Origin: Gammaproteobacteria bacterium
GTDB lineage: Bacteria; Pseudomonadota; Gammaproteobacteria; Steroidobacterales; Steroidobacteraceae
Reading direction: 5' to 3'
NCBI GenBank assembly: GCA_009692245.1
Contig: SHZN01000005.1
Location: 1 to 35,867, forward strand
Length of the DNA stretch: 35,867 nt
This document shows, one piece after another, positions 13,909 through 19,437 of this stretch (position 1 is the stretch's first letter; each line of letters opens with the position of its first letter). Below the pieces are notes generated by a model. The model did no database searches. It had not been told where the DNA came from and worked only from the letters and a program-made list of their open reading frames with translations. The position numbers were made by a program, and so were the translations under genes.

Positions 13909-14984
13909 AGTTCGACGTACTGGCACGCGACGGTGCCGCGCGCTGCGGCCGGCTCGGCTTCGCCCGTGGCATAGTCGAGACCCCCGCTTTCATGCCGGTC
14001 GGCACCTATGGCTCCGTCAAGGGCGTCACCGCCGAGGAGCTCGTCGCCTGCGGCGCACAAATCGTGCTCGCCAATACTTTTCACCTGATGTTGCGCCCGG
14101 GTGTGGATGTCGTCCGCGCCCACGGCGGCCTGCATGGGTTCATGCATTGGGAGCGGCCGATACTGACCGATTCAGGCGGTTTCCAGGTATTCAGCCTGGC
14201 GAAGATGCGCAAGGTCTCGGAGGAAGGCGTCAGCTTCCAGTCTCCGGTGGATGGAGACCCGGTGTTCCTCGATCCCGAGCGTTCGATGGCGGTGCAACGC
14301 GCGCTCGGCTCTGACATCGCCATGGTTTTCGACGAGTGCACGCCATTTCCCGCGACCGAGCATCAGGCGCGCGAGTCGATGGAGCTGTCACTGCGCTGGT
14401 CGGAGCGCAGCCGGCGCGCCTGGGACGCCGGCGAGGGAGCGGGGGTGCTGTTTGGGATTGTGCAGGGTGGCGTGCACGATGCACTGCGCAGTGAATCGCT
14501 CGCCGGACTCTTGCGCATCGGTTTCAACGGGCTCGCGATCGGCGGTCTGTCCGTTGGTGAGCCGGCCAGCGAGCGCCAGCGCGTGCTGGAAGTGCTGTTG
14601 CCGCAGATGCCGCCGGAGCGGCCCCGCTACCTGATGGGTGTCGGTAGGCCCGAGGACCTCGTCGAAGCGGTGTCGCAGGGCGTTGACCTGTTCGATTGCG
14701 TGATGCCGACGCGCCACGCGCGAAATGGGCACCTGTTTGTGCGGGGTGGCGTCATGAACATCCGCAATTCCCGGTATGCCGAGGATACGAAGCCGATCGA
14801 CCCGGAATGCGGCTGTTATACCTGCCGCCATTACAGCCGTGCATACCTGCGGCATCTCGATCGCTGCGGGGAGATGCTCGGCCCGCGGCTCGCCACGCTG
14901 CACAACCTGCACTACTACCTGGATCTCATGGCTGGCCTCCGCACTGCGATCGCCGCTGGCAATCTGGCCGCGTTCCGCGCCTGA
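13905..14984 (+). CDS. tgt: queuine tRNA-ribosyltransferase (tRNA-guanine transglycosylase)
   Basis: Exchanges guanine 34 for preQ1 in GUN-anticodon tRNAs, the step before QueA. The 359 residues include [29 protein letters not shown] with the general-acid Asp, the [13 protein letters not shown] loop with the nucleophilic Asp, and the zinc site [17 protein letters not shown]. The start is TTG 13905, overlapping the queA stop by four bases (TTGA), and the first residues [18 protein letters not shown] match the family. The last bases of the gene belong to the left copy of the 62-bp repeat, and the antisense oxidase ORF overlaps the 3' end by 59 bases. Confidence 0.95.
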
Positions 14985-17900: not shown

Positions 17901-19437
17901 CTCCAATCCTCGCGATACTGGCGATCGAGGGCGTCCCCGCCGGATTGATGACAAACAGCATGTAATACCCGGGTGGAGCGTCGGCGGCGTGCGTCGGCGC
18001 CTGGGCCACCAGTTGGTTTCCGTTCTGCTGAAATGTCAACTCGACAAAACGCTGGTCCATGTTCCAGTTATGCGTGACGGATCCGGTCTTGATCATCACG
18101 ACGCGGCTGATGCTCTGGGCCGAAGCCAGGTCCACTGCAAAAGTCTCGCCGATGTCGATGAATGTCGGTACTGATGCAATACCCGGGCGGCTCGCGAATG
18201 CGCCGCCGGCGTCGTACAGGTACGGCGGGTAATAGATCTCCATGTTGGTATTGGTTTGCGGGCCCGGCGCACCGCCGCCAGCCACCAGCACCGTGGCATC
18301 GGGCAATAGCAACGCCGTGGAGTGATACAGCCTTGCCTGGATCGCGTTGGCGCCGCGGACCCAAAGCCCGGTGCTGGGATCCCAGATCTCGGCGCTGTAA
18401 TTGACGCCGGTCATCTCGTTCCAGACGGTGCTGCCACCCGTTGCGAGTACCTTGCCGTCGGCGAGAATGGTGGCGGTCGCCAGGCGTCGCTGCGTGGATA
18501 ATGACGCGGTATTCGTTACGACCGGAGACGCGCCAGTGATATCGATGACGCGCGCTCCATTCGAATTGCCGCCAAACTGGATTATTCGGCCCGGCCGGAA
18601 CAAGGCGGCCGTGGAGTCAGTGCCGGTGGGCCCGGTGAGCTGGCCGGTGCTGGTTACCGAACCCGTTCCGCTGGTATTGACGTAGTACATCGCACCGTTG
18701 CCGTCGATGCCGAATATCCGGCCATCTGGCGCGATGAAGTTGTGCGGGTACATGAAAACGAGAGCGCTGGTGTCGGCATTCTGCAACAGGCGAAACGCGC
18801 CGTTCACGTCGCGGATCTCCGGGCGGTCTTCGCCGCCGGAGCCGCCCTGCGTGTATGTCTCGCCGTTCAGCAGCACCGTGGTCGAGGAATACCAGCGCGG
18901 GCGATTCATGCTGGTCTTGCGCGCAAGCGTATTGCTGCCGTAATTGAACACGTTGCTGTTGTTGTTGCCGGTATTGGTGATGCCTGAACCGGTCCAGTTA
19001 TCCCCGCCCGCAATGAACACGCCTCCGCCCCCGGGCAAGACCACCTGCGAACTGCAAAACAGATCCGTTCCGGTAGCATTCAGCCGCGTCACGTGCTCCG
19101 TCGGCAGTCCAACGGCGGACGGATCCCACACGTCGTAACTGAAATAGCCGGTCGGCGTGCCGAGAGCCAGCCCCGAATCTATTGTGGAGGACGTGCCGTA
19201 ACTCAACACGCGTCCATCGGGCATCAGCACGGCGTGCACGGGAATCAGCGGCCAGGACTGCACCGGCGACCAGGCGCCAAGGGTATTGCTTGCCACGGCC
19301 ACGGGTGCCGCGGCCAGGAAGGCGAGGCTGAGGCACAGGCCTGCCATCATCTTCCCGATGCAGTGATCATTGCCGTCGCGCAAGAAGCATCCACTCAAAT
19401 CCGTCAGTGCTGGCTCTGTGGCGTCAGGCAGACCCAC
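14926..19437 (-). CDS. secreted copper-radical oxidase / YVTN propeller / di-heme cytochrome c / PA14 fusion protein
   Basis: A 1503-residue exported protein. A signal peptide ends near residue 50 ([17 protein letters not shown]). Residues about 55-515 are a galactose/glyoxal-oxidase kelch propeller plus DUF1929 cap, with every expected copper-radical residue: Cys128 (DLFCSS), Tyr183 (RWYSST), Tyr371-His372 (RLYHST) and His456 ([11 protein letters not shown]). Then come an Ig-like He_PIG domain (525-605), a PKD domain (612-695, YKWDFDDG), a YVTN seven-blade-like propeller (700-1050) and a di-heme peroxidase/MauG-like module with CASCH at 1099 and 1230 and the family motif [18 protein letters not shown]14 spans 1336-1455. 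The last 25 or so residues are antisense to tgt and look unselected. The start is uncertain: GTG 19437 lacks a ribosome site; ATG 19350 follows GGGAAG. The alcohol or aldehyde substrate is unknown. Confidence 0.88.
14946..15007 (+). repeat. left copy of 62-bp direct repeat, includes tgt 3' end
   Basis: The segment from GCGATCGCCGCTGG in tgt to GGCCACA just past its stop recurs at 19664-19725 in the same orientation. I count 51 of 62 bases identical without gaps. The last 25 (starting GATTCCATGCCGAGCGCCGG) are perfect and 35 of the last 36 match. The two copies bracket the antisense oxidase gene. Confidence 0.85.

Follow-up and report, generated by a model that had tools for sequence, protein, structure and literature searches.

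Why would a galactose-oxidase-type copper enzyme carry two hemes in the same chain? In the laboratory, copper-radical oxidases (CROs) are activated by adding horseradish peroxidase or chemical oxidants, and how their radical state is kept up or recovered in vivo is not settled. CROs lapse into an inactive reduced state from which one-electron oxidants revive them, in vitro a peroxidase plus mediator (PMC10928124). The locus described here lies in a window of 35,867 nucleotides, the whole stretch of DNA that was analyzed. Judged from its sequence, the encoded protein is a large secreted fusion of a galactose-oxidase-type copper enzyme and a two-heme module, built as follows (counts refer to alignments of 40 CRO modules, fused and unfused relatives, and of 40 YVTN-diheme modules; CCP, cytochrome c peroxidase; HZS, hydrazine synthase):

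14926..19437, minus strand: whole ORF of the CRO-YVTN-diheme protein (P0001), 1503 codons plus stop, uninterrupted
19288..19350, minus strand: Sec signal peptide, residues 30-50 (21 residues), from the sequence and the aligned start of relative L031
17902..19287, minus strand: AA5 copper-radical oxidase module, residues 51-512, kelch propeller plus GO-like E-set
19054..19056, minus strand: Cys128, predicted partner in the Cys-Tyr cross-link, invariant in 40/40
18889..18894, minus strand: Trp182-Tyr183, predicted second-shell Trp and cross-linked Tyr (RWY type); Tyr183 in 40/40, Trp182 in 37/40
18322..18327, minus strand: Tyr371-His372, predicted copper ligands, 40/40
18070..18072, minus strand: His456, predicted copper ligand, 40/40
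17620..17886, minus strand: Ig-like (He_PIG-type) linker domain, residues 518-606
17362..17610, minus strand: PKD domain, residues 610-692 (Pfam)
16279..17340, minus strand: YVTN seven-bladed propeller, residues 700-1053, similar to HZS beta
15478..16275, minus strand: diheme module, residues 1055-1320
16129..16143, minus strand: heme motif 1, CASCH 1099-1103, 40/40 as CxxCH
15973..16023, minus strand: distal segment 1139-1155 (17 residues) with invariant H1139, W1140, D1145, E1146, D1149 and E1151
15946..15954, minus strand: GLM 1162-1164, at the position of EMG (catalytic Glu) in CCP and MauG
15736..15750, minus strand: heme motif 2, CASCH 1230-1234, 40/40 as CxxCH
15580..15627, minus strand: 16-residue fold motif 1271-1286 of the CCP/MauG/HZS-gamma superfamily
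15544..15546, minus strand: His1298, present in 37/40 and predicted as sixth ligand of heme 2; HZS gamma has a His at the aligned position
15046..15438, minus strand: PA14 domain, residues 1334-1464 (Pfam)
14929..15015, minus strand: read-through tail, residues 1475-1503, without homology to relatives
14941..15007, plus strand: 67-nt direct repeat, copy 1, forming the 3' end of tgt
19659..19725, plus strand: 67-nt direct repeat, copy 2, 82% identical, between the fused gene and yajC

The fusion and its distribution

A first-pass annotation had placed a secreted protein with Ig, PKD, YVTN and PA14 domains at 14926-19437. These coordinates were correct, with the gene lying on the minus strand, and the architecture was borne out by the signal peptide and by matches in Pfam, NCBIfam and phmmer. 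Pfam recognized Glyoxal_oxid_N (PF07250; residues 121-247, 8.7e-12, 45.2 bits against a cut-off of 37.5), GO-like_E_set (PF09118; residues 417-510, 1.1e-22, 80.6 bits against 25), PKD (residues 618-690, 5e-17), CCP_MauG (PF03150; residues 1075-1149, 2.9e-7, 31.7 bits against 25.6) and PA14 (residues 1334-1464, 4.3e-27); the YVTN repeats came from NCBIfam. Translation probably starts inside the frame, near residue 30, or at a TTG slightly upstream, the exact codon being uncertain. The proteins of relatives end at or near RLYSN, whereas the window frame runs past this point into tgt-derived sequence, and we hence take the last 29 residues (1475-1503) as read-through.

The fused gene stands alone between tgt and yajC-secD-secF in a 1.6-Mb draft genome that is 76% complete and, to judge by its relatedness to named records, probably belongs to the Steroidobacter group of Gammaproteobacteria. 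It has no Sco, MauG-like or small-cytochrome neighbor in the window, and the two Sco genes of the source genome are unlinked to it. The last 25 nt of the direct repeat are identical in both copies, and only these two copies were found in the draft genome. Since the insert starts immediately behind the final conserved codon of the fused gene, and both the native stop and the Sco neighbor are missing, the arrangement suggests an insertion event between tgt and yajC.

A scan of reference genomes returned about 20 full-length relatives with 54-71% identity, whose hosts include Piscinibacter, Rubrivivax, Rhizobacter, Methylibium, Azohydromonas, Rivibacter and one Steroidobacteraceae draft genome. 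The relative of highest identity (71%), L031, comes from a bin labelled Planctomycetota; just after heme motif 1 it shows an in-frame TAG and a local disturbance (L031:6780-6850), either a pseudogene or a sequencing error. With a diheme-module profile at E<1e-40, the matching genomes, which include the window's own, came to 17 among 296 searched at order level, 5 among 369 at class level and 2 among 299 at phylum level. In the close YVTN-diheme clade, every complete gene (n=38, leaving out L044, L083 and L109, which are cut by contig ends) has the oxidase module upstream, in the order CRO, linkers, (PKD), YVTN, diheme; this constant fusion holds for the close clade only, because the search seeds were themselves fused genes. 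The search for the same fusion in other genomes, proposed in the first-pass annotation, thus found it with conserved order in many of them. An assembly error or chance joining would suit a fragmented draft genome and a gene lacking its native stop and Sco neighbor, but we give it practically no weight, because the same order recurs in these 38 genes from independent genomes, including the isolates of Piscinibacter, Rhizobacter, Azohydromonas and Rivibacter.

In more distant YVTN-diheme relatives, other N-terminal regions replace the oxidase. These are FG-GAP repeats (L094:5937-9974 and L107:3-2885) or a region of about 500 residues without a Pfam family, beside which Big_5 alone was recognized (L100:6831-11804, L101:7390-11205 and L102:7777-11592). 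FG-GAP genes have also been mentioned near hydrazine synthase homologs (PMC12758564). One version of the fusion reaches 3186 residues, with five malectin domains and a second kelch propeller (L103:3151-12708). Rivibacter subsaxonicus has three tandem CRO genes (L052:2860-12723), namely a CRO alone, a CRO-PA14-PA14 and the full CRO-diheme fusion, and its unfused copies nest inside the fused clade.

The oxidase and the diheme module

The five residues of the AA5 active-site set (Cys, Tyr, Tyr-His, His) are present in all 40 aligned CRO modules, so that the ligands named in the first-pass annotation, Cys128, Tyr183, Tyr371-His372 and His456, stand as given. The second-shell Trp stacks on the Cys-Tyr cofactor. 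Trp182 is replaced by Gly in L042, L047 and L050; these three have their Trp at position 201 (GGSWSGG), comparable to Trp290 of galactose oxidase. Residues 53-511 match solved galactose oxidases (phmmer, E=6e-45). The oxidase and YVTN-diheme modules were modelled separately, the core (residues 51-1320) being longer than 1200 residues. At fold level, the AlphaFold model of the oxidase (pLDDT 92.8) superposes on solved CROs with TM 0.83-0.89 over the query, and with 0.88 on 1gof. Pfam scores and model TM together indicate the kelch propeller plus E-set fold of AA5. We hence regard the window oxidase as a clear AA5 member, for which copper, radical and Cys-Tyr cross-link are predicted.

A glycan or lignocellulose-derived substrate had been proposed earlier, which is a guess from the PA14 and Ig domains. 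Small aldehydes appear at least as likely, because Trp182-Tyr183 resembles the second shell of the fungal AA5_1 aldehyde oxidase, where W509-Y510 forms the RWY arrangement (PMC13094651); in this class the radical reportedly falls short of the galactose oxidase radical in stability (PMC13094651). On a Comamonadaceae plasmid (L131:1-20602), the fused gene, a small cytochrome and Sco lie amid protocatechuate and gallate breakdown genes, a hint at lignin-derived substrates.

The YVTN-diheme half is the more conserved one (mean column identity 60% versus 45% for the oxidase). The solved structures nearest to its propeller are an archaeal S-layer YVTN protein and HZS beta, those nearest to the diheme part CCPs and HZS gamma. 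Both CASCH motifs read by the first-pass annotation were confirmed, and two CxxCH in a CCP_MauG fold are what a bacterial diheme CCP would have. The annotation's class, peroxidase/MauG-like, held for this fold and these motifs; it did not hold for the residues that distinguish the enzymes. The superfamily Trp is kept as W1140, but the candidate positions for the distal Glu are Gly1160, 20 residues after Trp1140, and Leu1163, both in 40/40. The invariant acids D1149 (+9) and E1151 (+11) might be stand-ins for the catalytic Glu. At the ligand position of the second heme, the fusion has His1298 where MauG has Tyr and CCP has Met, and this heme is therefore predicted to be bis-His. The 16-residue stretch 1271-1286, formerly read as a peroxidase signature, is a fold motif of the whole CCP/MauG/HZS-gamma superfamily and no proof of peroxidase activity.

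Three identities were rejected. A canonical bacterial CCP would have the distal catalytic Glu and the heme-2 Met, both absent here (GLM for EMG; His1298). MauG/MbnH would have the distal Glu and an axial Tyr, likewise absent, and the scores stay far below the cut-offs (TIGR03791, 36.8 versus 443.85 bits; TIGR04039, 47.1 versus 362.85). Like HZS beta-gamma, also the fusion has a YVTN propeller directly followed by a diheme module with a bis-His heme II, the bis-His being predicted from alignment alone; however, it scores 78.1 bits against an NCBIfam cut-off of 1250, and gamma-His144 at heme I is replaced by Trp1140 (correspondence as given in PMC12758564). The fused diheme is best described, from its residues, as a non-canonical member of the CCP/MauG/HZS-gamma superfamily.

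Module exchange and linked genes

In the diheme tree, the Sco-type clade (Burkholderiales/Steroidobacter-type fusions) forms one group with support 99, whereas the oxidase tree places L042, L047, L050 and L131 together with unfused CROs from Cupriavidus, Caballeronia and their relatives. The diheme data rejected the oxidase-tree grouping (p-AU 0.004), the oxidase data rejected monophyly of the Sco-type clade fusions (p-AU 6e-53), and a single clade of all fused diheme modules was neither rejected (p-AU 0.47) nor shown; these p-AU values are indicative, because the tree groups were defined and named after the first FastTree run had been seen. The trees indicate that oxidase modules were swapped between CRO subtypes while the diheme partner was retained. 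From this it follows that the pairing of CRO and diheme looks functional.

Automatic clustering of neighboring ORFs gave many spurious clusters from overlapping frames, and only SCO, MauG-like and small-cytochrome clusters survived profile checks. Of the 24 complete fused genes in clade 1, 10 have an SCO1/SenC copper-chaperone gene next to them, as do three partial genes; in L031 it lies directly downstream. Clade 2 comprises fusions from other Gammaproteobacteria, and 11 of its 14 fused genes lie next to a MauG/MbnH-like gene. The product of this neighbor apparently retains the MauG residues Trp, Gln, Pro, Glu and axial Tyr. With such a MauG-like enzyme, its Glu and Tyr intact, available from a gene of its own next door, the fused diheme of clade 2 probably does another job. 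In one locus (L091:13291-15750), the MauG-like neighbor is itself a tandem fusion of two diheme MauG domains.

Unfused proteobacterial CROs have heme proteins nearby as well. In six of the seven loci examined (Cupriavidus twice, Caballeronia, Burkholderia, Paraburkholderia and L143), the CRO has genes for a small monoheme cytochrome c and Sco next to it; at L149, the remaining locus, a CCP_MauG/RoxA-like gene lies close by. The small cytochrome has about 150 residues (RCxNCH ... MPxY) with a likely Met ligand, and no Pfam family matched it above cut-off. A search of 72,556 plasmid records at E<=1e-16 returned it from six, and these six are also the proteobacterial records with a CRO of at least 50% identity. 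A seventh record, from Roseomonas, matched at 1e-3 only, and the Streptomyces CRO records in this search were without the small cytochrome. In the Cupriavidus oxalaticus record, the copy adjoining the CRO is a second one, and the copy with the highest score is located elsewhere. Small cytochrome and fused diheme are not simply interchangeable, since both occur in L042, L050 and L131. The pairing recurs, fused and in separate-gene operons with copper chaperone and small cytochrome, which suggests dedicated heme redox partners for bacterial CROs.

Proposed role of the heme partner and comparison with known systems

We favor, with about even confidence, a role of the fused diheme in electron transfer, either to hold the copper radical in its oxidized state, to accept electrons, or both. 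The CRO module would oxidize an alcohol or aldehyde at its Cu/Cys128-Tyr183 radical site. Motif 2 of the YVTN-diheme module would bind an outer bis-His heme and motif 1 an inner one; the module would swap single electrons with the copper site and hand them to a c-type cytochrome, thereby holding the copper center in its active form, Cu(II) with a Tyr radical, or bringing it back there. The hemes might thus offer an electron outlet besides O2; heme 1 may also use up peroxide that the oxidase produces, and Sco would supply the copper. In the unfused CROs of Burkholderiales, the separate small monoheme cytochrome c would do the same task. The predicted bis-His heme resembles heme II of HZS gamma, which was proposed to receive electrons from a cytochrome c (PMC12607021). 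Architecture, conservation, module exchange and linked genes are read from the DNA; the direction of electron flow, radical reactivation, substrate and distances we infer.

Electron transfer fits all cases best, because the unfused partner is a monoheme cytochrome and the fused diheme is without the peroxidase Glu; with its likely Met ligand, the monoheme cytochrome is not a CCP-type peroxidase, an indication that electron transfer is the shared need. Proteobacterial CROs appear to use c-type hemes as re-oxidant, be it as a separate monoheme cytochrome, a MauG-like neighbor or a fused diheme. Against electron transfer, heme 1 keeps W1140 and the invariant E1151 and D1149, which could support peroxide chemistry, small cytochrome and fused diheme occur side by side in L042, L050 and L131, and the heme partner of the Streptomyces CRO is a true peroxidase, DtpA (PMC4736821).

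A rival role is that of a peroxide sink, in which the diheme would reduce H2O2 made by the oxidase with electrons from periplasmic or surface cytochrome c, shielding enzyme and cell. Precedents exist, as Streptomyces DtpA consumes H2O2 from GlxA (PMC4736821) and fungal glyoxal oxidases act together with peroxidases (PMC10928124), and the di-heme peroxidase fold with its conserved W1140 would suit this role. We nevertheless consider it rather unlikely, given Gly in place of the distal Glu of CCP and MauG, GLM at the EMG position, the MauG-like enzyme with intact Glu next door in 11 of 14 clade-2 loci, and a monoheme cytochrome rather than a peroxidase as partner of the unfused CROs.

Alternatively, the hemes might serve maturation, oxidizing Cu(I) to Cu(II) or driving the Cys128-Tyr183 cross-link in the same chain, much as MauG builds a cofactor or DtpA takes part in the maturation of GlxA. 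In fungal galactose oxidase, however, copper and O2 suffice to form the Cys-Tyr cross-link, and the fused module is without the catalytic Glu and axial Tyr of MauG. The MauG-like gene beside clade-2 fusions would fit a maturation step, but there the neighbor itself would be the better candidate. Sco linkage recalls Streptomyces GlxA, which requires Sco plus the heme peroxidase DtpA, although extra copper rescues GlxA maturation without DtpA (PMC4736821). On balance, we regard maturation as improbable.

Hardly more than a slim chance is given to a two-step enzyme, in which the YVTN-diheme module, as kin of HZS beta-gamma, would be a second catalyst acting on the oxidase product or another small molecule held by the chain. 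We know of no chemistry that would join aldehyde products to an HZS-gamma-like heme. HZS beta-gamma is the closest architecture and its homologs are widespread, yet its gamma-His144 is replaced by Trp in the fusion (PMC12758564). That distant relatives of the module carry other N-termini (FG-GAP in L094/L107; the region of about 500 residues in L100-L102) would agree with an independent catalyst.

Returning to electron transfer, we may speculate, as a doubtful extension, that proteobacterial CROs act in the cell wholly or partly as cytochrome-linked dehydrogenases, with electrons passing from Cu/Tyr-Cys to c-type hemes and on to respiration, and not only from substrate to O2 to give H2O2. To our knowledge, no CRO is known to act in this way. 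If true, these CROs could turn over without generating H2O2, which would matter for biocatalysis and bioelectrodes. The welded-on heme partner and the small-cytochrome operons would provide a natural activator or acceptor that is directly testable.

A search of the open literature, with subscription papers outside its scope and priority hence not assured, found no described fusion of a CRO with a heme or cytochrome domain and no CRO-cytochrome-Sco operon. An AA5 alcohol oxidase of Burkholderia pseudomallei joined to an inactive CE3 domain is also a bacterial AA5 fusion and, going by the title alone, is set apart by being without a heme domain (PMC11267884). With other AA5 CROs (galactose oxidase, 1GOF/9G43; fungal glyoxal/aldehyde oxidase, 9N3U; GlxA, 4UNM), the window oxidase shares the five active-site residues and the propeller plus E-set. 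Bacterial diheme CCP and MauG/MbnH resemble the fused module in diheme fold, conserved Trp and the P-T-L-R...AP-Y-x-H-x-G motif, and differ in having the catalytic Glu and a heme-2 Met or Tyr instead of His. The nearest known architecture, a YVTN propeller followed by a diheme, is that of HZS beta-gamma (chains B and C of 5C2V; a fused protein in Scalindua). HZS gamma has in common with the fused diheme CASCH...WDL...NT..RG, the DVGT motif and the His at the second-heme ligand position; differences are the fusion's score of 78 versus a cut-off of 1250 bits, Trp for His144 and an N-terminal CRO in place of the alpha subunit. In the GlxA-Sco-DtpA system of Streptomyces, a CRO is likewise linked to Sco and a heme protein (PMC4736821), but DtpA is a separate DyP-type peroxidase, whereas the window protein carries a c-type diheme in the same chain.
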